Part shown: one piece after another, positions 1,794 through 12,966 of the stretch
Layout of the letters: each line of letters begins with the position of its first letter
Position numbering within the stretch: the first letter of the stretch is position 1
Origin: Deltaproteobacteria bacterium
GTDB lineage: Bacteria; Myxococcota_A; Polyangia; Polyangiales; JADJMO01
Length of the DNA stretch: 64,000 nucleotides
Reading direction: 5' to 3'
Assembly (NCBI GenBank): GCA_025363655.1
Contig: JANYDK010000139.1
Location: 1 to 64,000, forward strand
Position numbers and translations under genes: made by a program
The notes under the pieces: generated by a model
Told to the model about the DNA's origin: nothing
What the model saw: the letters and a program-made list of their open reading frames with translations, nothing else
The model's database searches: none

Positions 1794-2948
1794 TCACCAG
1801 CCGACGGCGACGAGGATGTATTGCGGATTCTTGTGCGAGACGTAACTCGAATAACCGCCGACATCGTCGTAAGGAAATCCGTACGCTTTTCCGCTCAAGC
1901 CATGTGCGTGCCAGAAACGCGCGTAATAGTCGGCAGGGCCCGCCGTGTAGAACTTGGTCGCGTCGTCCCACAGCTTCTTGTCGAGCAGCTTGCCGTCCGC
2001 GCCGAAGGTGCCGGCGACGCCGCCGACGTGACGCATGATCGCGGCCGAGAGATCGGGATACTTGTCGAGACCGCTGCCGCCCGGCCCCGGCTTGGCGACG
2101 GTGACGCCGTTGGCCGACCAAATCTGATCGACCCAGCTGTCGTAGTAGTGCGCGTTGGCGCCGCCGGTCTTGAAGTCGAGGGCGCCGGGCTCGACGATGC
2201 GATAGGGCGCGAACGGCGCGTCGGCGAGCTTCTTGAACTCCGCTGGCACCTCCGCTTGGAACTTCGCGAACGTCGCCTCGCGCGTCTCGGCGAACGTCTC
2301 GTAGTCCTCGCCGACCGCGACGTCGTAGCCGTCGGCGCAATGCAAACGGAGCGCGATTTTGAGGCCGAACGCGTCGACGCGCGTGGTGTTGCCGTTGTAG
2401 ACGTCGGTGCCGATGGTGTGCTCGATGAAGTCGAAATATTTGCTCGTGCGCGGCGCGGCGTTGCACGCGGCGTCGTCCTTGGCGCAGATGTAGAGATAAA
2501 GTCGCCCCGAGCTGTTGGCGGGCATGTCGTAGGTCGACTCCGCGGCAATCGAATGCAGCTCGTCGATGGTGGCGTTCTTGAAGCTCCAATAGACGTTGGC
2601 GTCGGCGGACTTGCCGTTGGTGCGATTGAGGAAGCGGAACATCATCACGTTCTTCGCCGCCGGAATCGGGTCGGTCGCCCAGAAGTCCTTCGGCGCAGTG
2701 GCGTCGCCGGGTGGCGCCGAGTCGGGGACGATCGCGTCACCGGGCGTCGACGTCGTGTCGGCCTTCGCGCTGTCTGCTGCGTCGCTACCTGGAGAGTCCG
2801 CCACGACATGCGTATCGGTCACCGCTGCGTCTTCCCCCGCCGTGCCAGTGTCGGTGCCGTCTCCCGCTCCATCGCTGCTACCGCTCGAGCAAGCAGCGGT
2901 GGTGGCGAGGACGAGGAGCGTGGCCCAATGGATCGTCTTCATGTTCAT
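1794..2948 (-). CDS. GH64-like beta-1,3-glucanase lipoprotein
   Basis: A 384-aa predicted lipoprotein: MNMKTIHW, a hydrophobic core, then the lipobox TTAAC, with Cys about residue 20. A low-complexity Asp/Ser/Thr/Ala linker follows to about residue 85. The catalytic part resembles glycoside hydrolase family 64 (laminaripentaose-producing beta-1,3-glucanases): a thaumatin-like beta-sandwich start (VYWSFKNATIDELHSIAA), the central VGEDYETFAETREATFAKF, and the closing FPYDDVGGYSSYVSHKNPQ, which is characteristic of the family. Expected action is endolytic release of beta-1,3-glucan oligosaccharides at the cell surface. It lies 118 bp downstream of the TOS1-like gene on the same strand, at the end of the wall-hydrolase block. 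Catalytic residues were not assigned individually. Confidence 0.8.
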   Translation of the reverse strand: MNMKTIHWATLLVLATTAACSSGSSDGAGDGTDTGTAGEDAAVTDTHVVADSPGSDAADSAKADTTSTPGDAIVPDSAPPGDATAPKDFWATDPIPAAKNVMMFRFLNRTNGKSADANVYWSFKNATIDELHSIAAESTYDMPANSSGRLYLYICAKDDAACNAAPRTSKYFDFIEHTIGTDVYNGNTTRVDAFGLKIALRLHCADGYDVAVGEDYETFAETREATFAKFQAEVPAEFKKLADAPFAPYRIVEPGALDFKTGGANAHYYDSWVDQIWSANGVTVAKPGPGGSGLDKYPDLSAAIMRHVGGVAGTFGADGKLLDKKLWDDATKFYTAGPADYYARFWHAHGLSGKAYGFPYDDVGGYSSYVSHKNPQYILVAVGW

Positions 2949-3066
2949 CGGTCGCTTCGAAAGGCGAAACAGCTCAGGAAATCGTGTGTCATACGCGCGT
3001 GTCGACGCTGAGGCTCACGGTCCTCGATCACACGTGGTCGCACTTGCGCCAGGCCACGTCGGCGCG

Positions 3067-4413
3067 TCACTTGGGCAGCTGCAAACCGCGCAACGTGGCG
3101 ATCGTCGCGCCGTCGAGTGAGCCGGGGAGCGACACCAACGCGGCCGGAGCGGCGCCTGGATGCACCATCCCGACTTTGATCGTGCGTGAGGACACATCGA
3201 GGAAGGCGAAGAGAATGCGTTCACCGGAGGGACGATGCCAGACGGGACAGGGCCCGTTCTTGGCGCCGTAGGTGAGCGTGACGCCAGCGGTGGCGGCGGC
3301 CTTGGTGCAGGCGTCGACGAGATCGACCTCGGGGGCGAACATGTCTGGCTTGCAGCTGCCGAAGCCGCAGACGTTTCCGCCGAACGAGCCGACCTGATAC
3401 GAGCGAAGCCCGGTGCTCATGATCGTTCGATTGCCATACGCAGCGCCTTCGCTCTCGGGGACCGTTTCGAAGACGTTGATCTCGCCGCAGCCGGCGCCGA
3501 CGGTGCCGTCGGTGTTGTCGTAGCAATGGCAGGGGAAGTACTTGCCCCAACCGTCGCGCATCAGCTCCGAGGCCGAGAAGCCGATCCACGGCGCGTCCAC
3601 CGGAGCGCCAGAACCGCATGATTTCCCGTACGAAGTGGGAGCGCCGGCGACCATCGTCGCGCGAAAGACGAGGAGCTTGCTCCCGGCCCATCCTTGGAAG
3701 TCGACGTCGGGGCCGCTCGCCGGACAGTACGGATCGCTCGACGGCCCACAGGGAAAGGCCTCGGCGCGCATGGCGTACCAGCTGCACGAATCGCCGATGT
3801 CGCCGGTGAAGGCGTGCGTGCCTCCCGGACCGGTGAAGTGCAAGTCGGTCATCGCCGTCGGCGTGCGGGCATCGAAGTACGATGTGCGCGCCCACGCGTC
3901 GGTGCTCGTCGGCTGATAGACCGCGAGCTGCGCGATGTGCATCGGACCTCGTAAAATCAAGGTCATCGGTGAATCGAAGGGCGTGAGGGTATCGGCCGTG
4001 ACGGTGTGCTTTTGGCGACAGCAGTAGTCGGTGCCACCGGCGGCGCCGAGATCGATTGCCTTCGATTCGACGTCGCAGCGAGGATCACCTGCGCCCGCGA
4101 GGACGCGTCTTCCCCAATAGCCGGGCGCGCCGATGTTGGCGAAGGTGATGGTGCCGCCCTTCGAGGTCGGACCGGCGTCGCCGCCGTCGAGCGGCGGAAG
4201 GGTCGGCACGTCGACGCCATTCGTGTCGCCCGGCACGTGACCATCCGCGGGCGATGCCGAGTCGCGTGTCACCGAGCTGTCGCCGCTCGGATCGACAGCG
4301 GAGTCCGAAGCGTCGGCGCCCCCGCCGTTCGCGGAGCCATCGTCGCCGCCGCATCCGACGACGAGCAGCGCGAATGCGACCACGGTTTCTCGTGCGAACG
4401 CGCTCGGCCTCAC
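3067..4413 (-). CDS. TOS1-like (DUF2403/DUF2401) putative glucan-acting lipoprotein
   Basis: A 448-aa protein starting at GTG in a GTGA overlap with the stop of the GH128 gene, so the two are translationally coupled. It has a signal peptide ending in LLVVGC (lipobox), then an Asp/Ser/Gly-rich linker. The rest resembles fungal TOS1 cell-wall proteins. The N-terminal part shows TFANIGAPGYWGR and ILRGPMHIAQLAVYQPTS, like the fungal RGPL..QFAVY segment. The C-terminal part is GH16-like, with CHCYDNTDGTVG followed by CGEINVFETVPESEG, matching the CSCW..GCGEFDIFEVL region of fungal TOS1, whose acidic residues are the likely catalytic ones. Fungal homologues act on beta-1,3-glucan. It has numerous paired Cys, as expected for a secreted enzyme. 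Function here is inferred from family and neighbours. Confidence 0.7.
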   Translation of the reverse strand: MRPSAFARETVVAFALLVVGCGGDDGSANGGGADASDSAVDPSGDSSVTRDSASPADGHVPGDTNGVDVPTLPPLDGGDAGPTSKGGTITFANIGAPGYWGRRVLAGAGDPRCDVESKAIDLGAAGGTDYCCRQKHTVTADTLTPFDSPMTLILRGPMHIAQLAVYQPTSTDAWARTSYFDARTPTAMTDLHFTGPGGTHAFTGDIGDSCSWYAMRAEAFPCGPSSDPYCPASGPDVDFQGWAGSKLLVFRATMVAGAPTSYGKSCGSGAPVDAPWIGFSASELMRDGWGKYFPCHCYDNTDGTVGAGCGEINVFETVPESEGAAYGNRTIMSTGLRSYQVGSFGGNVCGFGSCKPDMFAPEVDLVDACTKAAATAGVTLTYGAKNGPCPVWHRPSGERILFAFLDVSSRTIKVGMVHPGAAPAALVSLPGSLDGATIATLRGLQLPK

Positions 4414-5417
4414 TTGCAGGTCTCCGGCAGCGACACGTAGAGCTTGCCCAACTCGGTGAGCTCGCCGCTCGCTCCGAGGAGGTTGATGCTCGGCGTCTTG
4501 GGGAATCGCCCAGAAAACCACGAGTAGCGCTCGACCATCGGATCGGCCTCGAGCACCGCGAGCGCGTCTTTCATATAGGCCTGTTGCACGGCGACCGAGG
4601 TGTCGCTGCCATCGAGGCAGGAGAACTCGGTGAGCCAAATCGGTTTGCCGTATTTGCTCTCGAACTTCGAGAGATAGTCGACGAGCGCGCTCTTGGTACA
4701 CGCGTACCAATGCACCGCAATTGCGTCGATTTTGCAGCCTTTGCAGGCGGCGAAGAATTGATCGAAGTAGTCGTAGGGGTTCGTCACGCTGCAGCCGCCA
4801 CCGCAGTAGTTGAGCGCGGGCGAGACGATTTTCAGGCCCTTCGCGGCGGCGATGGCCTCGACCTTGGGCCAGAGCGCAGCGGCCTGCGTCGGCGTCAGGT
4901 TCGCTTGCGAGAAGAAGTTGGGCTCGTTGAAGCCGAGGAGATACTTGCTCCCCGCGGGCACCTTCGACTCGATGTCGCTCTCGGTGAAGGTTCCGCCCCA
5001 GACCATCGGCGCGAACTCGTAGCCGAGGCCACCGAATGCACTGCCGATGGTCGCGTCGTCCGGCGCGGGGGACCAGTTGTACCACCAGTGCACTGTCGGC
5101 TTCAGCGCGGTGAGATCAGCGACGCTGTTGTGACCGTAGGCGAGCCCGCGCTTGCAACGGAACGACGTCGGACCCGAGTCACCTCCGGTGTCGGTGGCGG
5201 GCGCGTCGACTTTGGGAGTGCCCGTGTCGCCGGTGCCCGTGTCGCCGCTTCCGGAATCGGCGCCTCCGCTGCTGTCGCGCACGACGGCGTCATCGACCGC
5301 GCTGTCGGTGACTGCGATGGCGTCGTCGAAGAGCACCTGCGACTCGGAGCTACCGCAGCCAAAGAGCGCGAGGACCGCGAGGATCCCGCTGAGTCCAGCA
5401 CGCGTGGAAGTGCTCAT
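4410..5417 (-). CDS. GH128 endo-beta-1,3-glucanase lipoprotein
   Basis: A 335-aa predicted lipoprotein beginning MSTSTRAGLSG, with lipid Cys at about residue 21 (LALFGC). A Ser/Asp/Thr/Gly/Pro linker runs to about residue 85, then a TIM-barrel of the glycoside hydrolase 128 (Glyco_hydro_cc) type. Visible family hallmarks are WWYNWSPAP, FAPMVWGG, LGFNEPNF (acid/base Glu about 165), AVHWYAC and WLTEFSC (nucleophile Glu about 264). The start at 5417 puts the signal peptide directly at the N-terminus; an upstream in-frame ATG at 5468 would add basic residues and is less likely. GH128 enzymes cleave beta-1,3-glucan internally. The gene lies 41 bp behind the barrel-like protein and overlaps the TOS1-like gene. 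Confidence 0.85.
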   Translation of the reverse strand: MSTSTRAGLSGILAVLALFGCGSSESQVLFDDAIAVTDSAVDDAVVRDSSGGADSGSGDTGTGDTGTPKVDAPATDTGGDSGPTSFRCKRGLAYGHNSVADLTALKPTVHWWYNWSPAPDDATIGSAFGGLGYEFAPMVWGGTFTESDIESKVPAGSKYLLGFNEPNFFSQANLTPTQAAALWPKVEAIAAAKGLKIVSPALNYCGGGCSVTNPYDYFDQFFAACKGCKIDAIAVHWYACTKSALVDYLSKFESKYGKPIWLTEFSCLDGSDTSVAVQQAYMKDALAVLEADPMVERYSWFSGRFPKTPSINLLGASGELTELGKLYVSLPETCK

Positions 5418-5458
5418 GCTTCGTTGGTCGCGCGAGCGGGAATTTCGGCTCATGCAGC

Positions 5459-6541
5459 TCATAGCCACCCTCCGAACCCAAGAGAGAATGCCACGCCGAG
5501 GCCTTCGCGGGAGGCGAGCACCTGGCCGAGGGCATCGTCGGCGCGCACCGGTCGCAAGACGAGGAAGGGCGAGGCTTCGAGGGAGGCTTCGAAGCGATCG
5601 AAACTATCCAGCCGACCAAGCCGAACGAACGCGCGGAGGGCCGCGCGGGCCATCGCCGAGAGCACGCTCGCATCGGTACCCACCGCATGACCCGAGGCGT
5701 CGGCGACGAAACGAACCCAAATTGCGTCGACACCAGCCGAAGCACGAAGGCCGAATCGTGAGCTGCGCGTGCTCGTTACATAACCTATCGATGCACCTGA
5801 GTGCAGATCTTCGCTGTGCACCACGCCGCCGATGCCTTCGTGCGCGATTCCTCGGTCGTAGCCGAACGAGACACCGACGAAGGCCGGGCCACCGAGACGC
5901 GCGAGGGACCAGAGCGAGGCGCCGACGGAGGTGTCGTGCTTCGGGAGCACGAACGCTTGCGCATCGATACCGAGGGCCCACGTGCGCTCTGCAGCTCCAG
6001 ATGCACCCGGTGAGACGCGCGCCTCCGTCTCGAGGACGCGGACCAGCGCAGGCGGAGGCGCCATCGCCGGGGGAGGTGCATCGGCGAGGGTGAGCTCGAT
6101 CCAACTCGCGCGCAGGAGCTCGTCGGCGGCCGAGGCCACCACCAGCGCACGCGTCTCGATCGGCATCTTTCCAAGCTCGATCGTGCGTTCGAGCCGCTTG
6201 TCGGTGACCTCGTCGCGGACCTCGATGGTCGCCATCACCGAGGCACCTTGGCGGGTGACGTGGAGACGCACGCGCGCAATCGGCTTCGCGCTCGCCGGCC
6301 AGCTCGTGCACACGTCCATCTCGCGGGGGGTGAGCTCGCCGCGCAGGTGACGGGCGAGGTTGTCGGCGAGGATTTGATCGGGCGGTTCCACCTCGAGGAC
6401 GACGGCGACGATGGGCCTTCCCGTGTCGGTGGCGCAGGCAAAATCTTCGGCGTCGACGCGCGCGCTGATGAGCGCGAGGGCGAGGCTGACGGCGAACGCG
6501 ACTGCGAAGAGCGGTGTCGCTCCCAGCCTGCGACGTCTCAC
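5459..6541 (-). CDS. Secreted protein with a probable C-terminal beta-barrel; downstream partner of sigma/FecR
   Basis: A 360-aa protein of no family I recognise. The GTG start overlaps the FecR stop (GTGA), implying coupled translation. A signal peptide (PLFAVAFAVSLALALISA) is followed by a soluble N-terminal domain to about residue 130 (IVAVVLEVEPPDQILADNLA...), a short Pro/Ala-rich hinge, and then about 180 residues of alternating hydrophobic/polar Gly- and aromatic-rich sequence. The chain ends GVAFSLGFGGWL, as expected of an outer-membrane barrel. Position behind a sigma factor and FecR suggests a surface sensor or signal-transfer partner, as FecA is for FecR, but it has no TonB-receptor features. 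That role is inference. Confidence 0.6.
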   Translation of the reverse strand: MRRRRLGATPLFAVAFAVSLALALISARVDAEDFACATDTGRPIVAVVLEVEPPDQILADNLARHLRGELTPREMDVCTSWPASAKPIARVRLHVTRQGASVMATIEVRDEVTDKRLERTIELGKMPIETRALVVASAADELLRASWIELTLADAPPPAMAPPPALVRVLETEARVSPGASGAAERTWALGIDAQAFVLPKHDTSVGASLWSLARLGGPAFVGVSFGYDRGIAHEGIGGVVHSEDLHSGASIGYVTSTRSSRFGLRASAGVDAIWVRFVADASGHAVGTDASVLSAMARAALRAFVRLGRLDSFDRFEASLEASPFLVLRPVRADDALGQVLASREGLGVAFSLGFGGWL

Positions 6542-7734
6542 GGGCACCGCTTGGTCACGAGGGAACCCAGCGTACTCGCCGGATGATCGGCGAGGAAGCG
6601 CGCTCGAGCCGCTTGGCAGAGGGACACTTGCCCGGAACGTTCGAGCGCTTCGACGCGGCGTGCTTCCGCGTTCTCGCGAAACGGAGCCGCGGGGGCGAGT
6701 TGGATCGCCGATGCGAACGCTTCTGCGGCGCCGGCAGGATCGCCCAGGGAATCGAGCCGAATGCGCCCGAGCTCGTAGGCGGCGACCCCTGCGCGAGGGT
6801 CTCCCGGAAAGTCCATATAGACATGATGGAACGCGTCGGCGGCCTCTTTTTGTCGTCCCGCGAGGCGTGCTTCGTCGGCCAGCGCGTACCATCCGGCGGC
6901 ATCGGTCGGCGTGGTGTCGCTGGCCTTCGGCACCACCGTGGCGCTGGGCGTGACCGAGGTACTCGTCGTGCTCGATAGTGCCGCGGGAGCGATCGGCGGT
7001 CCGTTCACGCTGGTGCTCGCGGCTGCCGAGAGGGTCGAAGGCTTCGTGCTCGAAGGATCGGGCAAGTGCTGCGAGATGCTCGGATCGGTCGGATCGCTCG
7101 GCTCGAATGAGTCCTTCGACTTCGTCCATTGCTGGCCAGCGCCGAGGATGGCGTCGGTGTCGCCGCTCTTGCCGTGGAGTCGCACGGTTCCCCGCGAGAC
7201 CGACACCGCGAGGTCACCCGAGGGCGTCACGCTGGCGACGAAGCGCGCATCGCGGGCCGTGATTTCCAGGCTTGCCGCCGAGCCGAGGGTGAGCCGAAGC
7301 CCGTGGCCGTCGCGCGCGAGATCGCAGTCGACGCTTCCTCGTTCGAGATGGAGACGAAGCGTGTCGTCGGACGTGCCATCGACCCGGAGCTTGCTCCCCG
7401 CGGCGAGCTCGAGCGCGCTGCCGTCGGGAAATTGGGTGCGCTCGGAGGCGCCGGCGGTTTCGAAGACCCAACCCTCGATGGGATCACGACGGGCTTCGAG
7501 CGCAGGTTCGTGGCGGGCATGTCTCGCACGAAGCGCCGCGAACGAGAGCGCGCCGAGCCCGAGCAGCACGACGGCGGCCGCGGCAAAGACCCTGAGGAAG
7601 CGAGGACCACGACCTGCACGACCTGACTGAGTCGAACCGCTCGACCCGATGGCCGACCACATCCGATCGACGCGCGCCGGGCTGAGCCGAGGACGCACGT
7701 AGTCGGCCAGCCGATCGTGTCGAGCCGGTTTCAT
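6538..7734 (-). CDS. FecR-domain membrane protein with C-terminal TPR region
   Basis: A 398-aa protein, start in an ATGA overlap with the sigma-factor stop. A cytoplasmic N-terminus (about 45 residues, with RLSPARVDRMWSAI resembling the anti-sigma helix) precedes one membrane span (FLRVFAAAAVVLLGLGALSF). The FecR beta domain follows: FPDGSALELAAGSKLRV, LHLERGSVDCDLA, VSVSRGTVRLHGKSG. A Ser/Thr/Pro linker leads to a TPR/BamD-like helical tail (WYALADEARLAGRQKEAADA, then YELGRIRL). FecR proteins hold or license a partner ECF sigma factor in response to an envelope signal, so the partner should be the overlapping upstream gene. The TPR tail is an addition to classical FecR and may bind periplasmic proteins. 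Confidence 0.82.
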   Translation of the reverse strand: MKPARHDRLADYVRPRLSPARVDRMWSAIGSSGSTQSGRAGRGPRFLRVFAAAAVVLLGLGALSFAALRARHARHEPALEARRDPIEGWVFETAGASERTQFPDGSALELAAGSKLRVDGTSDDTLRLHLERGSVDCDLARDGHGLRLTLGSAASLEITARDARFVASVTPSGDLAVSVSRGTVRLHGKSGDTDAILGAGQQWTKSKDSFEPSDPTDPSISQHLPDPSSTKPSTLSAAASTSVNGPPIAPAALSSTTSTSVTPSATVVPKASDTTPTDAAGWYALADEARLAGRQKEAADAFHHVYMDFPGDPRAGVAAYELGRIRLDSLGDPAGAAEAFASAIQLAPAAPFRENAEARRVEALERSGQVSLCQAARARFLADHPASTLGSLVTKRCP

Positions 7735-8342
7735 CGCTCACCCCGCGAGCGCGATCGGGCTGGAGGCTCGACCAAATAGCCCTCGGCGCGTACGAGACGA
7801 CGCTTCACCGTCGCCAGCGACCAGCCCGTCTGCTGCACGATTTCGTCGAAGGAGAACTGCTCGACGCGACGAAGGACGAGCACCACGCGCTCACGCGTCG
7901 GCATCGCCTCGATCGCTCGGTAGATGGCCGAGAGCTCGGCGGCGACGTCGGGCGGTGCGTTCGGCGCGAGGATGCGTTCGAGATCGATCGCCTGCCGCGG
8001 ACCGATGCCGAGACGCCGGAGGAGACGTCGCTTGCGAATCACCGAGATGGTGCGACCAGTGACGATGGCGCCGAGCCAGGTGGAGAATGCCGCCGCCGAC
8101 TCGAGCTTGTGGAGCCCGGCGAAGGCCGCCACGAACGTCTCTTGGACGATGTCCTCGAGCTCGTGATCGTCGCCGAGGAGCCGGAACGCCATTCCCGAGA
8201 CCATCGTCACGTAGCGACGAAAGAGCGCTTCCTTCGCTTTGAGGTCGCCCGCGCGCGCGCCTTCGACGAGAGCCTCGGCGGAAGGCTGCTCGAGCTTGAA
8301 TACGCGGGCGGTCATCAGGGACATCGGGGGGTGTTGCCTCAT
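7731..8342 (-). CDS. ECF sigma factor (RpoE-like)
   Basis: About 203 aa. Region 2 is clear (LFRRYVTMVSGMAFRLLGDD, HELEDIVQETFVAAFAGL), with the AFSTWLGAIVTGRTISVIRK segment typical of region 2.4. Region 4 reads MPTRERVVLVLRRVEQFSFD then EIVQQTGWSLATVKRRL (helix-turn-helix). The ATG at 8342 is taken; GTG 8351 and ATG 8324 (with GAGG upstream) are alternatives. It overlaps the FecR gene by ATGA and lies 72 bp downstream of the GH18 gene on the same strand. It probably directs transcription of envelope or secreted functions when released by FecR. Whether the neighbouring glycosidase genes are its targets is inference. Confidence 0.85.
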   Translation of the reverse strand: MRQHPPMSLMTARVFKLEQPSAEALVEGARAGDLKAKEALFRRYVTMVSGMAFRLLGDDHELEDIVQETFVAAFAGLHKLESAAAFSTWLGAIVTGRTISVIRKRRLLRRLGIGPRQAIDLERILAPNAPPDVAAELSAIYRAIEAMPTRERVVLVLRRVEQFSFDEIVQQTGWSLATVKRRLVRAEGYLVEPPARSRSRGER

Positions 8343-8414
8343 GGGTCGCACGAGTTCGCAAAATGGCTCAGCGGGACACCTCGACCTTCGAAGAGTACGT
8401 AAAAACAGGCTTCA

Positions 8415-9581
8415 TCACGGGATCTCCTTCGCGATCACGCCCATCAGCGAGTGCGCGCCCGAGGCATCGCCGGTGAGCTCCCAGCTCATGACGCCGCCGT
8501 AATCCTTGGAGAGATCGGCGAGCCGCTTCATCGTCGCTTCGCCGACGTAGAAGAGCTTCGAGCCGTCGGCGTCGACGAGATCTTTGTTCCACGCGTCGGG
8601 GTAGTACTTGAGGACGTCGCGATAGAGCATGTAGTGGCCGGCCTCTTCGGGCTTGTCGCAGGCGCCCGAGCAGTCGGCGTAGAACTTCACTCCGAGCACG
8701 ACCTGCGCCTTCGGCACCCTCGCGGTCTCGGTGAAGTACTTCATGTCGGCGAGCGCATCGTCGTAGGTGCCGTACGACATGACGTTGACGAAATCGAAGA
8801 GCGCATAGGTCGGAGCCGACATGCCCGAACCGCCGTCTTGAATCCATCGCGCCACCGCCGCGGTCAGAAGTTGTCCCTTCGGCTTCACCAAGTCGTGCAG
8901 CTTGGCGACGAAGGTGTCGACGTTTTTGCCCATTTTTCCGGGCGATTCGACGTCGACGTCGACGCCGTCGAGGCCGAGGCGATCGAGGAAGGAGCCGACC
9001 TTGGCGACGAAGGCGTCGACGTTGCCGGGTGCATAGTGGCGCGTCAGCTTGTCGGAGTCGGCGCCTCCGCCGAGCGACGCCATCACCTTCACCTTCGAGG
9101 CGTGCGCCGCGGCGATGAACTTCTTCACGCTGTCGTCGCTGTCGCCGAGCCCGAGCTCGTTGCTCCCGTCGTCGGCGTTGGCGAACGCGAGGTTGATGTG
9201 CGTGAAGCGGGTGAACTCGATCTTCGCGGCCCAGCTCGCGAAGGAGCCGTTCCAGTTGGGCACGTAGGTGATGACGCGGGTCGAGTGGCCCGTGGTGGGC
9301 GGCACGTCGGGTGGACCGCCGTCGGTGCTCGAGGTCCCCGTGTCGTGGGCCGCGTCGAGACCGACGTCGCTCGCGGGCGGGGCATCGTCGATACGCGCGT
9401 CGTCTCCCTCGTGCGGTCTTCCGGTGTCGGGGCTTCCGGCGTCGGTGCCGCCATCGCCCGGCCCGAGCGGGACGTCCTCGGGCCCTTGGCCGCCGGCCCC
9501 GAAACAACCCCCGACTGCGACTGCGAACGCTGCGAACGAGAGGCTCGAGAGGAAAGAGAGGAAAGAGACCCGGGCCGACAT
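8415..9581 (-). CDS. GH18 chitinase-like lipoprotein
   Basis: A 388-aa predicted lipoprotein with lipid Cys near residue 26 (AVAVGGC) and an acidic Gly/Pro/Asp linker to about residue 98. The TIM barrel is of the GH18 type: STRVITYVPNWNG at strand 1, FTHINLAFANAD, KVKVMASLGGGADSD (the SxGG motif), the catalytic DGVDVDVE with Glu about residue 212 intact, FVNVMSYGTYDD and YGGVMSWELTGD at the last strands. Expected substrate is chitin or related N-acetylglucosamine polymers, with action at the cell surface. It heads the co-directional block of wall hydrolases (GH18, GH128, TOS1-like, GH64). Endo versus exo action cannot be read from sequence. Confidence 0.85.
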   Translation of the reverse strand: MSARVSFLSFLSSLSFAAFAVAVGGCFGAGGQGPEDVPLGPGDGGTDAGSPDTGRPHEGDDARIDDAPPASDVGLDAAHDTGTSSTDGGPPDVPPTTGHSTRVITYVPNWNGSFASWAAKIEFTRFTHINLAFANADDGSNELGLGDSDDSVKKFIAAAHASKVKVMASLGGGADSDKLTRHYAPGNVDAFVAKVGSFLDRLGLDGVDVDVESPGKMGKNVDTFVAKLHDLVKPKGQLLTAAVARWIQDGGSGMSAPTYALFDFVNVMSYGTYDDALADMKYFTETARVPKAQVVLGVKFYADCSGACDKPEEAGHYMLYRDVLKYYPDAWNKDLVDADGSKLFYVGEATMKRLADLSKDYGGVMSWELTGDASGAHSLMGVIAKEIP

Positions 9582-9633: not shown

Positions 9634-10449
9634 TCACTCGGCAAAAGAAGGGGCGAATGCATTCCCCCAGCTGCGGTATCGAGCCCCCTCGTCGATGCCG
9701 TCGAGGGTCGATTCGCTACGACCCGCGCCCGTCGCGCGGGCGACCACCTCACCGACGAGAATCAGCGCCGGAGGTTGGAGGTTCTCCTCACGCGCTGCTT
9801 CCTCCAACGTGTCCAGGGTAGCGATGACGATCTTCTCGCGAGGCGTGGTCGCGGAGGCGACGATCGCGGCCGGCGTGCTCGCGGGCCTTCCAGAAGCGAC
9901 GAGAGCCGTGACCGTCTCGGCGAGACGAGCGAGGCCCATGTAGAGCACCAGCGTTCCTTCGGGGGGGAGCGCGGCGATCGCAGGGCTCGCACCGTCGTCT
10001 TGAAAATGCGCCGTCGCGAACGTCACGCTCGACGCGCACTCGCGATGGGTGAGCGGGATGCGCGCCGAGGCGGCGGCGCCGAGCGCAGCGGAGATTCCCG
10101 GGACGATGTCGAAGGGGATCGACGCCGCCTCGAGCTCCTCGGCTTCTTCACCGCCACGCCCGAAAATGAACGGGTCGCCTGCTTTCAGACGCACCACCTC
10201 GCGACCTTCACGCGCTCGCAAAATCACCAGCGGATGAATGCGGCCTTCGTGATGACGGAGCCCTGAGGCGCGGCGACCGACGGGGATCAGCTCGGCCTCG
10301 GGCGGGGCGAGCGCGAGGATCTCCTCGGAGACGAGCTCGTCGTAGGCGATGACCTCGGCACGGGCGAGGAGACGCGCGGCCTTCAGCGTCAAGAGCTCGG
10401 GATCGCCAGGACCCGCACCGACCAGCCACACGGTGCCCGGCGCGCTCAT
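9634..10449 (-). CDS. cobA: Uroporphyrinogen-III C-methyltransferase
   Basis: A 271-aa SUMT enzyme that methylates uroporphyrinogen III at C2 and C7 with S-adenosylmethionine to precorrin-2, the branch toward siroheme. It shows the family signatures WLVGAGPGDPELLTLKA at the N-terminus, RLKAGDPFIFGRGGEEAEEL and the PGISAALGAAASARIPLTHR loop, then GTLVLYMGLARL. The ATG overlaps the narK stop (ATGA). Siroheme is the cofactor of NirB, encoded in the same operon, so the gene is best read as cofactor supply for nitrite reduction. The precorrin-2 dehydrogenase/ferrochelatase half of CysG is not fused here and not seen nearby. Confidence 0.93.
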   Translation of the reverse strand: MSAPGTVWLVGAGPGDPELLTLKAARLLARAEVIAYDELVSEEILALAPPEAELIPVGRRASGLRHHEGRIHPLVILRAREGREVVRLKAGDPFIFGRGGEEAEELEAASIPFDIVPGISAALGAAASARIPLTHRECASSVTFATAHFQDDGASPAIAALPPEGTLVLYMGLARLAETVTALVASGRPASTPAAIVASATTPREKIVIATLDTLEEAAREENLQPPALILVGEVVARATGAGRSESTLDGIDEGARYRSWGNAFAPSFAE

Positions 10450-11705
10450 TCGCCACCTTCGCTCGCGTCGACCGTCACTTCGGCATTCGCGACGGAGACC
10501 GGCGCGGTGACACGAAAACCACCTCGCCATCCACGACGCCAAGCGACGAGGACGCGCAGCGTGACGAAGGCGAAGAGGCCGACGCAACCGAGGACGATGA
10601 AGCCAGCGCTGAACGATCCGAGACGCTGTTTGAGGGTGCCGAGCAGCGTCGGAAGGAAGAAGCCACCGAGCCCACCGAGCGCGCCGACGATCCCGGTGAC
10701 GACGCCAATCTCACGGCGAAAACGCTGTGGAACGAGCTGAAAGACGGCGCCGTTGCCCATCCCGGCGGCGACCATCGCGACGACGAAGACCATCTCCATG
10801 CGCGCGAGCGTCGGGAGGCTGGCAGCGAGAAAGTAGAGACCGGCGAGGGCGAGGAAGATCACGCCGAGCATGCGCACCGCACCGACGCGATCGGCGAACC
10901 ATCCACCGAAGGGTCGCGAGAGGCTCCCCGCGCACGCCGCACCGGCGGTGAGATAGCCTGCGGTCACCGGCGCGATCGCGAACTGATCGCAGAAGAAGAC
11001 AGGCAAGAAGCCGCTGAGGCCGACGTAGCTGCCGAAGGTGACGGCGTAGAAGACGCAGAGCCACCAGAGGTCGGGCTGACGAAGGACGGCGCGCACATCG
11101 ACCGGTTTTTCGTGCTTCTCCAGCGTCGCCGTCGGCGCGTCTTTGGCCATGCGCGCGAAGGCGATGAGCACCAGCGTCAGGGGAATGGTCGCGAGCGCGA
11201 GGACGCCATGCCAACCGACGAGGCGCGCGAGGAGCGGCGCCGAGAGGTTGGCAATCACCGTCCCGCTGTTGCCCGCCGCGGCGATGCCCATCACCAGACC
11301 TTGGCGCTCGGGCGGATACCAACGACTGGCGAGCGGCAACGCGACGGAGAACGAAGCACCGGCGGTGCCGAGGAGCGCGCCGACGGCGAGGAGCGACGGG
11401 AGACCGCGGCCGTAGAGGGCGCCGAGGACGAGCGGTACGTAGAGCACGAGGAGCATCGCGATGCCGACGCGACGACCACCGTAGCGATCGGCGAGGAGCC
11501 CCATCGGAATGCGCGCGATCGAGCCGCCGAGGATCGGCACCGCGACGAGGAGCCCCTTCTGCGCGGCGTTGAACTGGAGGTCGCGGGCGATCACCGCGCC
11601 GAGCGCGCCGAGGAGCACCCAGAGCATGAAGCTGAGATCGAAATGGAGGAAGGAGGCCACCAAGGTCGGGGTGTGGCCTCGTTTGGCGGTGACGGGGAGG
11701 TCCAT
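10446..11705 (-). CDS. narK: Nitrate/nitrite transporter, NarK/NasA-type MFS
   Basis: A 419-aa major facilitator with about 12 membrane spans. It has the nitrate-porter signatures AAGNSGTVIANLSAP in the first half and GNGAVFQLVPQRF then GVVTGIVGALGGLGG in the second, plus the MFS loop motif GLLADRYGGRRVG. It sits between hemD and cobA in the nitrate assimilation operon, with its stop overlapping cobA, which supports uptake of nitrate for NasA. A 43-bp gap separates it from hemD. Direction (nitrate import versus nitrite exchange) is not decidable from sequence, but the assimilatory context favours import. Confidence 0.93.
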   Translation of the reverse strand: MDLPVTAKRGHTPTLVASFLHFDLSFMLWVLLGALGAVIARDLQFNAAQKGLLVAVPILGGSIARIPMGLLADRYGGRRVGIAMLLVLYVPLVLGALYGRGLPSLLAVGALLGTAGASFSVALPLASRWYPPERQGLVMGIAAAGNSGTVIANLSAPLLARLVGWHGVLALATIPLTLVLIAFARMAKDAPTATLEKHEKPVDVRAVLRQPDLWWLCVFYAVTFGSYVGLSGFLPVFFCDQFAIAPVTAGYLTAGAACAGSLSRPFGGWFADRVGAVRMLGVIFLALAGLYFLAASLPTLARMEMVFVVAMVAAGMGNGAVFQLVPQRFRREIGVVTGIVGALGGLGGFFLPTLLGTLKQRLGSFSAGFIVLGCVGLFAFVTLRVLVAWRRGWRGGFRVTAPVSVANAEVTVDASEGGE

Positions 11706-11749
11706 GATTTGGCTCTATTTCTGCTGGATTTCGATGATCGCAGCGGGTC

Positions 11750-12592
11750 TCAGGCGCGCTTCGGCAGCGCGCGGGCAGAGAGGTGGCGGGCGAGGAGCGC
11801 GATCATCGGGCCCATCTTCGGATGATCGGGCTCGACGTCGGCGTGGAGGCCGACCGCCGCGAGCGCCGCGGTGCACGTCGGACCGACCGAGGCGAGGACG
11901 ATGCGTCCACGGAGCGCATCGAGGAGCGCGTCGAGCTCACCGCTCGCGCTCGCGACCTGGAGGAGATGACGGACCTGCACCTGGCTGGTGAAGGCGATGG
12001 CGTCGAGCTCGCCACGAATGACGGCGCCGATCAGCCGCTCGACCGGCGCGCGATCGTCGGGGAGACGCCACTGGTAGAGACAGAGCTCGTCGACGTGGGC
12101 GTCACGCGCGCGCAAGGTCTCGGCGAGCGTGGCGTTGCGCTCACCGTAGTGGAGGAGCGCGACCCGTCGACCTTCGAGATTCAGCGTCGAGAAGGCGTCG
12201 AGGACCTCGGCCGACGTGTACGGGGCCGCGGCCATCACCGTCGGCGGAATGCCCTCTTTTTTGAGCACCGCAGCGGGTTTCGGCCCGCGACAGACGATCG
12301 TCAGACCACGAAGCGCGACGACCACTTCTTCGCGTCGTCCGAAGCGTTCGGCGGCGTCGAGGAGGAGCGTGACGCCGGCGCCGGTGAGGAAGACGACGAC
12401 GTCGTAGCTCCCGCGCGCGAAGCCTTCGAGGAACGGACCGAGCCCGACATCGTCCGGAACCTCGGCCTCTTCGACCGCGGGCGCCGACATCGGCACGCCG
12501 CCATGTCGTTCGACGAGACGCGCGAGCTCGCCGCGCATGCGACCTTCGAGGAGGCCGATGCGCGCTTGGTGGAGGGGCGGCGCGTCGCTCAT
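11750..12592 (-). CDS. hemD: Uroporphyrinogen-III synthase-like protein
   Basis: A 280-aa two-domain U3S protein. The start ATG overlaps the nirD stop (ATGA); longer in-frame starts would run through nirD coding sequence. Family features are the low-conservation bilobed fold with FLTGAGVTLLLDAAERFG, IVCRGPKPAAVLKKEGI, VALLHYGE, AIAFTSQVQVRHLL and ASVGPTCTAALAAVGL. It cyclises hydroxymethylbilane to uroporphyrinogen III, the substrate of the CobA enzyme encoded two genes downstream. In nitrate/nitrite clusters HemD-like proteins are sometimes regulators fused to response domains; no extra domain is present here, so a plain enzymatic role is preferred. Confidence 0.82.
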   Translation of the reverse strand: MSDAPPLHQARIGLLEGRMRGELARLVERHGGVPMSAPAVEEAEVPDDVGLGPFLEGFARGSYDVVVFLTGAGVTLLLDAAERFGRREEVVVALRGLTIVCRGPKPAAVLKKEGIPPTVMAAAPYTSAEVLDAFSTLNLEGRRVALLHYGERNATLAETLRARDAHVDELCLYQWRLPDDRAPVERLIGAVIRGELDAIAFTSQVQVRHLLQVASASGELDALLDALRGRIVLASVGPTCTAALAAVGLHADVEPDHPKMGPMIALLARHLSARALPKRA

Positions 12593-12966
12593 GCGTCCCT
12601 CGATGGCTCCGTCGGCGCGGACTCGACACTCGAAGTCGGACCCGGCGACTCGGGCTCGCGCTCGAGAAGGAGCTCGCCGTCGTCGCGTACGCGAACGCGA
12701 TGGAGACGAAGCGGCGGACCGTCGTGCCCGATCGGCGCGCCGGTGGTGAGGTCCCACTTGCGACCATGGAGCGGACAGACGACGACGCAGCCGCCGAGGA
12801 TGCCGTCCGCGAGCGGTCCACCCTTGTGCGGACACGCCGCGTCGGTCGCGTGGACGCCCCCTTCACGCGGACGAAAGACCGCGAGTTCCAGCGTATTCAG
12901 GCGAAAGCAGCGACCCTCGCCGAGGGCGACGAGACGCAGCGGACCGAGCTGACGGGTGCGCATCAC
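12589..12966 (-). CDS. nirD: Nitrite reductase small subunit, Rieske-type
   Basis: A 125-aa Rieske-fold protein with both cluster motifs intact: CPHKGG (C-x-H) and CPLHGRKWDL (C-x-x-H), which would bind a [2Fe-2S] cluster. Short length and position immediately behind nirB identify it as the NirD subunit of cytoplasmic NAD(P)H nitrite reductase. The GTG start at 12966 overlaps the nirB stop (GTGA), with an ATG three bases later as alternative. The Ser/Pro/Glu-rich tail after residue 105 is not part of the Rieske fold. Some NirD proteins lack the cluster ligands; this one keeps them. Confidence 0.9.
   Translation of the reverse strand: MMRTRQLGPLRLVALGEGRCFRLNTLELAVFRPREGGVHATDAACPHKGGPLADGILGGCVVVCPLHGRKWDLTTGAPIGHDGPPLRLHRVRVRDDGELLLEREPESPGPTSSVESAPTEPSRDA

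Follow-up and report, generated by a model that had tools for sequence, protein, structure and literature searches.

In a stretch of 64,000 nucleotides (hereafter the window), we found a co-directional gene block that likely encodes a dedicated ECF-sigma regulon for the breakdown of beta-1,3-glucan at the cell surface. Sigma control of the beta-1,3-glucanases, read from sequence comparison, is the well-supported part of this proposal. The tie between ECF/FecR and beta-1,3-glucanases made in a preliminary description of this DNA was borne out by linkage across bacterial families and by a shared promoter motif, and it was confirmed in Polyangium and Minicystis. The same description counted a GH18 chitinase in the sigma-controlled set, which the data did not bear out.

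A hydrolase locus around an ECF-FecR-barrel set

From 9581 down to 1794, the minus strand carries genes for GH18, ECF, FecR (with a TPR), a barrel protein, GH128, a TOS1-like protein and GH64 (Table 1). Profile matches agreed with the order, strand and families first described for this block. The 4-base overlaps reported at the same time were present in the sequence, as ATGA at the ECF/FecR and barrel/GH128 junctions and as GTGA at the FecR/barrel and GH128/TOS1 junctions. Translation probably starts at ATG 8324 for the ECF gene and at 2942 for GH64.

Table 1 Features of the locus and their positions in the window
Feature	Position	Strand	Basis
GH18 chitinase-like lipoprotein	8415-9581	minus	PF00704 5e-26, 92.4 bits; DGVDVDVE residues 205-212
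Promoter element 1 TGAGCCATTTTGCGAACTCGTGCGACC, upstream of ECF	8344..8370	minus	Exact TGAGCY-N15-GCGACC match
ECF sigma factor	7731..8324, open frame to 8351	minus	Sigma70_r2 3e-15, Sigma70_r4_2 2e-14
FecR-type anti-sigma/regulator	6538-7734	minus	PF04773 6e-7; one membrane helix; C-terminal TPR
Outer-membrane barrel protein, predicted	5459-6541	minus	AlphaFold2 model and structure matches
Promoter element 2 TGAGCCGAAATTCCCGCTCGCGCGACC, upstream of GH128	5426-5452	minus	Family-wide pattern, then exact match
GH128 endo-beta-1,3-glucanase-like lipoprotein	4410..5417, open frame to 5462	minus	PF11790 1e-61, 208.9 bits
TOS1-like lipoprotein	3067-4413	minus	PF10290 6e-8; PF10287 0.002, below cut-off
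Promoter element 3 TGAGCTGTTTCGCCTTTCGAAGCGACC, upstream of GH64	2950..2976	minus	Exact TGAGCY-N15-GCGACC match
GH64 beta-1,3-glucanase-like lipoprotein	1794..2942, open frame to 2948	minus	PF16483 4e-29, 102.6 bits (cut-off 27)

Pattern and family searches of the source genome (9.03 Mb, 150 contigs) showed GH64, GH128 and the TOS1-like gene to be single-copy and to lie together within 3.7 kb; the same genome has four GH18 genes and ten FecR matches in all. Three genes placed at random would fall within 3.7 kb with a probability of about 5e-7, so the clustering of these single-copy genes is not due to chance. On the minus strand upstream of GH18, positions 9634-12835 carry uroporphyrinogen methyltransferase, MFS transporter and HemD-like genes, a tetrapyrrole/siroheme-type set. 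A second ECF-type sigma frame with a SnoaL-like C-terminal domain lies at 256-1128 on the plus strand and is unrelated to the finding. The only Rfam match in the window was to a tRNA.

Three of the hydrolases had been described as lipoproteins. The lipoprotein assignment held and the count did not, as all four carry a lipobox (VGGC, LFGC, VVGC and TAAC, with LFGC that of GH128). Catalytic motifs or family hallmarks had been claimed for each of them, and GH18, GH128 and GH64 showed their motifs. GH18 resembles solved chitinases and contains the DxxDxDxE motif within its profile match. The catalytic glutamate pair of GH128 consists of E165 in FNEPN and E264 in LTEFS. Its nearest solved relative, of the same GH128 family, is 6uax (E 6e-81), titled 'hypothetical serine rich protein', which we take to be a Sorangium cellulosum enzyme and for which we know of no regulatory context. 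GH64 matched the solved GH64 chains 9vp9 (E 5e-43) and 5h9x (E 1e-35), and retains E176 and D192, 16 residues apart, the same spacing as in the E154/D170 pair of the LPHase enzyme.

For the TOS1-like protein, the hallmark was limited to the N-terminal Tos1/YJL171C profile (33.5 bits, cut-off 27), the C-terminal profile scoring 18.1 bits against the same cut-off of 27. Invariant residues were identified across 18 homologues. Its sequence matched no solved structure and a Foldseek search with its model returned nothing significant; in a second structural comparison of the model, GH16 structures headed a set of weak matches (best Z 7.8). The model suggests that this protein may be a circularly permuted GH16-type beta-1,3-glucanase. 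By family, GH128, TOS1-like and GH64 are thus all predicted to be of the beta-1,3-glucanase type. Beta-1,3-glucan is the chief polymer of fungal and oomycete walls, and is also found in algae, plants and some bacteria.

A promoter motif shared by the sigma and glucanase genes

A matrix was built from Polyangium and Minicystis sites only and applied to both strands of the window. The site upstream of the ECF gene (8370-8343, minus strand) ranked first of all positions on both strands, with a score of 12.8. When the -35 half of this foreign matrix was used alone across the whole window, the ECF site again came first and the GH64 site second. With the full Polyangium matrix the GH64 and GH128 sites scored only 3.1 and 0.8, because their -10 half differs from that of Polyangium. 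A looser pattern derived from the whole triad family (ECF-FecR-barrel, described below) revealed the third site, just upstream of GH128. The shared promoter predicted at the outset was therefore found upstream of ECF and GH64, and also upstream of GH128, but not upstream of GH18 at 9581, where the best foreign-matrix score was -5.2.

The window contains three copies of the strict pattern TGAGCY-N15-GCGACC, one each in front of ECF, GH128 and GH64. Shuffled sequences contained 0.08 copies on average and none of 100 shuffles reached three, a figure that flatters the motif since two of the three sites had served to shape the pattern; the foreign matrix is free of this weakness. The rest of the 9.03-Mb genome holds five further copies, at least three of them inside genes: L211, L231 and L232 lie within genes or open frames, and L230 and L233 are less clear cases that overlap the end of a gene or a called frame. 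A broader pattern allowing 3 mismatches was tried on this genome and dropped, its counts being at the level of the reversed control.

Element 2 bears on how GH128 is expressed, as it falls inside the version of the gene that starts at the ATGA overlap. ATG 5417 gives the protein a normal lipoprotein signal peptide and is probably the true start. This better start and the internal promoter-like element make simple coupling of GH128 to the barrel gene improbable, and they weaken the idea of a single operon running through the ATGA overlap. At 2942 and 5417 in the window, as well as at the TOS1 and GH128 genes of the Polyangium locus L037, the start codon follows the -10-like element by only about 7-9 bases, so the transcripts may be nearly leaderless.

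The same element precedes TOS1, ECF and GH128 in the Polyangium cluster, and in both Polyangium and Minicystis it lies before GH128 at the equivalent place. Each of four Polyangium genomes (12.4-13.3 Mb) contains three copies of the exact Polyangium-Minicystis motif, all at the TOS1, ECF and GH128 genes of this locus. In Minicystis rosea (16 Mb), a search allowing up to 2 mismatches returned four sites, two of them before ECF and GH128 of the locus and two before unlinked genes, a GH64 about 6.9 Mb away in coordinate and a second ECF. Although the M. rosea sites had been used in broadening the pattern, the 2-mismatch search would have revealed others. A matrix made from Polyangium alone gave 30.5 for the M. 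rosea GH128 site and 22.4 for the GH64 site, and no more than 5.4 for any glucanase gene of genomes lacking a close triad. Several glucanase genes within the same Polyangium genomes (L149, L150) do not carry the motif. The presence of this motif only before the predicted surface beta-1,3-glucan enzymes and the sigma gene suggests that the enzymes are probably made on demand.

In the wider family, TGAGCC was found upstream of ECF in most triads, as expected for autoregulation, and in most other triads the wider family pattern gave no site ahead of the cargo gene. The second M. rosea ECF gene (L042:13885-14397) has no FecR and stands under the motif ahead of a TOS1-GH128 pair, which suggests a sigma cascade. 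TOS1-GH128 is also preceded by ECF genes in L151 and L152, but by different ones. A weaker copy of the motif is present downstream of the M. rosea GH64 gene (L143:8562), before an open frame with a lipoprotein-like start.

The triad in relatives and a signalling model

Relatives from the same order were searched for the TOS1 profile, GH64 and the barrel protein, and the flanking DNA was compared. The ECF-FecR-barrel set proved to be a recurrent cassette, mostly joined by 4-base overlaps. The cassette is followed by GH128 in the same direction in six genomes: that of the window, four of Polyangium (y55x31, 6x1, P. fumosum DSM 14668 and one further of the same genus) and Minicystis rosea DSM 24000. 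M. rosea belongs to a different family, so the core linkage spans families, and the conservation of ECF/FecR next to glucanases that the preliminary description had anticipated is observed. The Polyangium cluster reads TOS1, GH128, an uncharacterised lipoprotein, TOS1, ECF, FecR, barrel and GH128, with TOS1 thus also directly upstream of ECF. Pairs of TOS1 and GH128 without the triad are common among relatives, and TOS1-GH64-GH128 was found once. In the M. rosea locus L135, the ECF frame has no stop at the ATGA of the ECF/FecR junction and the neighbouring frame has one, as if there were a frameshift near the end of ECF.

The uncharacterised Polyangium lipoprotein (L037:7802-9160, minus strand) has about 450 residues, no Pfam match and a position between two TOS1/GH128 blocks. 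Sequences upstream of TOS1 in several other Polyangiaceae loci resemble the 3' end of its gene, and we regard it as a candidate new wall-active protein.

The cassette is older than its pairing with GH128 and elsewhere carries other lipoproteins. These include Cys-rich lipoproteins without a Pfam match (L081:7029-8315, L082:8817-10037 and L136:2873-4168) and RCC1-repeat lipoproteins (L083:8945-10519 and L085:7694-9157). The triad resembles a general-purpose module with surface lipoproteins as its cargo, and because its cargo varies, its presence alone is not evidence of glucan sensing. In the tree, the window triad groups with those of Polyangium/Minicystis and those followed by Cys-rich lipoproteins (support 100/100). 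Support for joining it to Polyangium/Minicystis rather than to the Cys-rich-lipoprotein triads was lacking; as the tree does not settle the branching order among these triads, the link with GH128 may go back to their common ancestor or have arisen on two occasions.

The FecR protein has a short cytoplasmic N-terminus with an RMWSAI motif, one membrane helix, a FecR domain, a Ser/Thr/Pro linker and a TPR. All triad FecRs in the alignment (n = 16) share this layout, with an RMWSAI-like motif; the TPR tail, first described as added, is therefore not an addition. The AlphaFold2 model of the barrel protein, built with 17 homologues (pLDDT 85.7), shows eight long strands preceded by a signal helix and an alpha/beta domain. 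Foldseek matched it to 1bxw (E 7e-6). VIA-align gave a Z of about 17 for residues 182-360 against OmpA/NspA/OprF/OmpW and of 9.3-9.5 for residues 26-148 against TolB/PqiC. The third gene of the triad is accordingly predicted from its model to encode an 8-strand OmpA/OmpW-like barrel behind a TolB-N/PqiC-like periplasmic domain. Both ends of OmpA-type 8-strand barrels are in the periplasm, hence the TolB-N-like domain would face the periplasmic FecR/TPR part. The Pfam scan of ten genes at the locus and its flanks gave no TonB or STN match, and together with the structure comparison it found no carbohydrate-binding domain in FecR or the barrel protein. The modelled ECF-FecR-barrel set may thus represent FecIR-type signalling without a TonB-dependent transducer.

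In the mechanism that we propose, the ECF sigma factor would drive the operon to which it belongs, ECF-FecR-barrel, with transcription probably continuing into GH128, as well as extra promoters for GH128-TOS1 and for GH64. That this sigma factor reads the motif is a strong inference from the sequence comparisons. The membrane FecR would hold the sigma factor, restraining or activating it, and the sigma factor would be paired with the small outer-membrane barrel protein. The cell would meet an external cue at its surface, in the simplest case beta-1,3-glucan or fragments of it; the periplasmic domain of the barrel would pass this cue to FecR, freeing the sigma factor and raising the amount of the three lipoprotein glucanases. 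The sensor role of the barrel, glucan as the cue and the surface location of the glucanases are all suggested less firmly than the link between sigma factor and promoter. A wider idea, that a class of small OmpA/OmpW-like barrels in Myxococcota senses insoluble polysaccharide and signals via FecR-TPR to ECF as a plug-in module for lipoprotein cargos, is one that we put forward tentatively and would not yet favour.

Alternative explanations and comparison with known systems

The block was initially read as one induced wall-lysis operon of four hydrolases, GH18 included. Co-direction and the gap of just 63 bases between GH18 and the ECF frame are in keeping with that reading, but the ECF promoter falls between the two genes and no GH18 homologue was found near any of the related clusters compared. 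We consider such an operon very unlikely: lacking both an upstream motif and a conserved linkage, GH18 is a neighbour, and it was rejected as a member of the regulon. The chitin half of the original reading, which had joined chitin to beta-1,3-glucan, falls away with it. GH18 does illustrate that an unrelated hydrolase can adjoin the locus, as would be expected if the whole were an accidental or loosely selected cluster, expressed constitutively and without a common regulator. Cross-family linkage and a shared promoter that is limited to these genes, the unlinked ones of M. rosea among them, leave that explanation with hardly any credibility.

A dedicated glucanase regulon could also serve nutrition, with algal, plant or detrital glucan (laminarin, callose or dead wall material) being used under the same regulation and no live prey involved. 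We regard this as a real contender, somewhat short of an even chance. The regulon enzymes all belong to beta-1,3-glucanase families, the sole part specific to chitin walls, GH18, stands outside, and ECF-sigma/anti-sigma control of carbohydrate enzymes is established in this setting (PMC10766802). Against it, the lipoboxes indicate that the enzymes stay attached to the cell, and the locus genes examined included no SusC/D-like gene or other gene for sugar import. Moreover, Polyangium and its relatives are known predators. Together with the outer-membrane beta-1,6-glucanase GluM, which Corallococcus sp. EGB is reported to use in predation of fungi (PMC10800785), this general knowledge of myxobacteria makes use against fungal or oomycete walls plausible; wall contact as the signal and predation as the outcome, both put forward in the preliminary description, may then be part of the picture. 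The triad might instead sense envelope or barrel-assembly stress, or general surface contact, the glucanases being mere lipoprotein cargo and no glucan being sensed. The other lipoprotein neighbours of the triad across the order and the lack of a detected carbohydrate-binding domain are consistent with this; nevertheless, every exact Polyangium/Minicystis motif site, unlinked ones included, is at a beta-1,3-glucanase or sigma gene, and folding or envelope genes would be the expected targets of a stress system. We consider it unlikely, without dismissing it.

Should the proposed regulon for surface beta-1,3-glucan breakdown prove right, its sigma factor, readable promoter and small target set would give genetic access, in the cultivated strains P. 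fumosum DSM 14668 and M. rosea DSM 24000, to the way in which predatory myxobacteria may recognise and breach walls of beta-1,3-glucan. FecIR-type signalling would then also include a receptor other than a TonB-dependent transporter. Our literature search returned no match on ECF/FecR in Myxococcota, on ECF with fungal prey in myxobacteria or on GH128 in Sorangium.

FecR signalling is known with other receptors (PMC11637429). The FecIRA systems (FecI/FecR/FecA and FoxI/FoxR/FoxA) and the window share an ECF sigma factor, a single-pass FecR regulator and an outer-membrane barrel with a periplasmic domain (predicted, in the window), all co-encoded; target promoters read by the sigma factor are part of the FecIRA scheme, and the motif suggests that the window may have them too. 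In contrast to the 22-strand TonB-dependent FecIRA transducer with its plug and STN, the window barrel is predicted to have 8 strands and a TolB-N/PqiC-like domain, with no STN detected. The window FecR bears a TPR, unlike that of FecIRA, and the output would be glucanases instead of iron uptake. Polysaccharide utilization loci of Bacteroidota likewise place carbohydrate-degrading enzymes under ECF/anti-sigma control, with other receptors (PMC10766802). They have a SusC/SusD pair, whereas none was found among the ten window genes scanned with Pfam in and around the locus, where the predicted receptor is a small barrel and the regulon enzymes are all of the beta-1,3-glucanase type. GluM is, like the window enzymes with their putative surface location, a myxobacterial cell-surface enzyme directed at fungal wall glucan (PMC10800785). 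GluM is both barrel and enzyme, with beta-1,6-glucan as its substrate, whereas the window appears to encode three lipoproteins of beta-1,3-glucanase families under a dedicated sigma factor.
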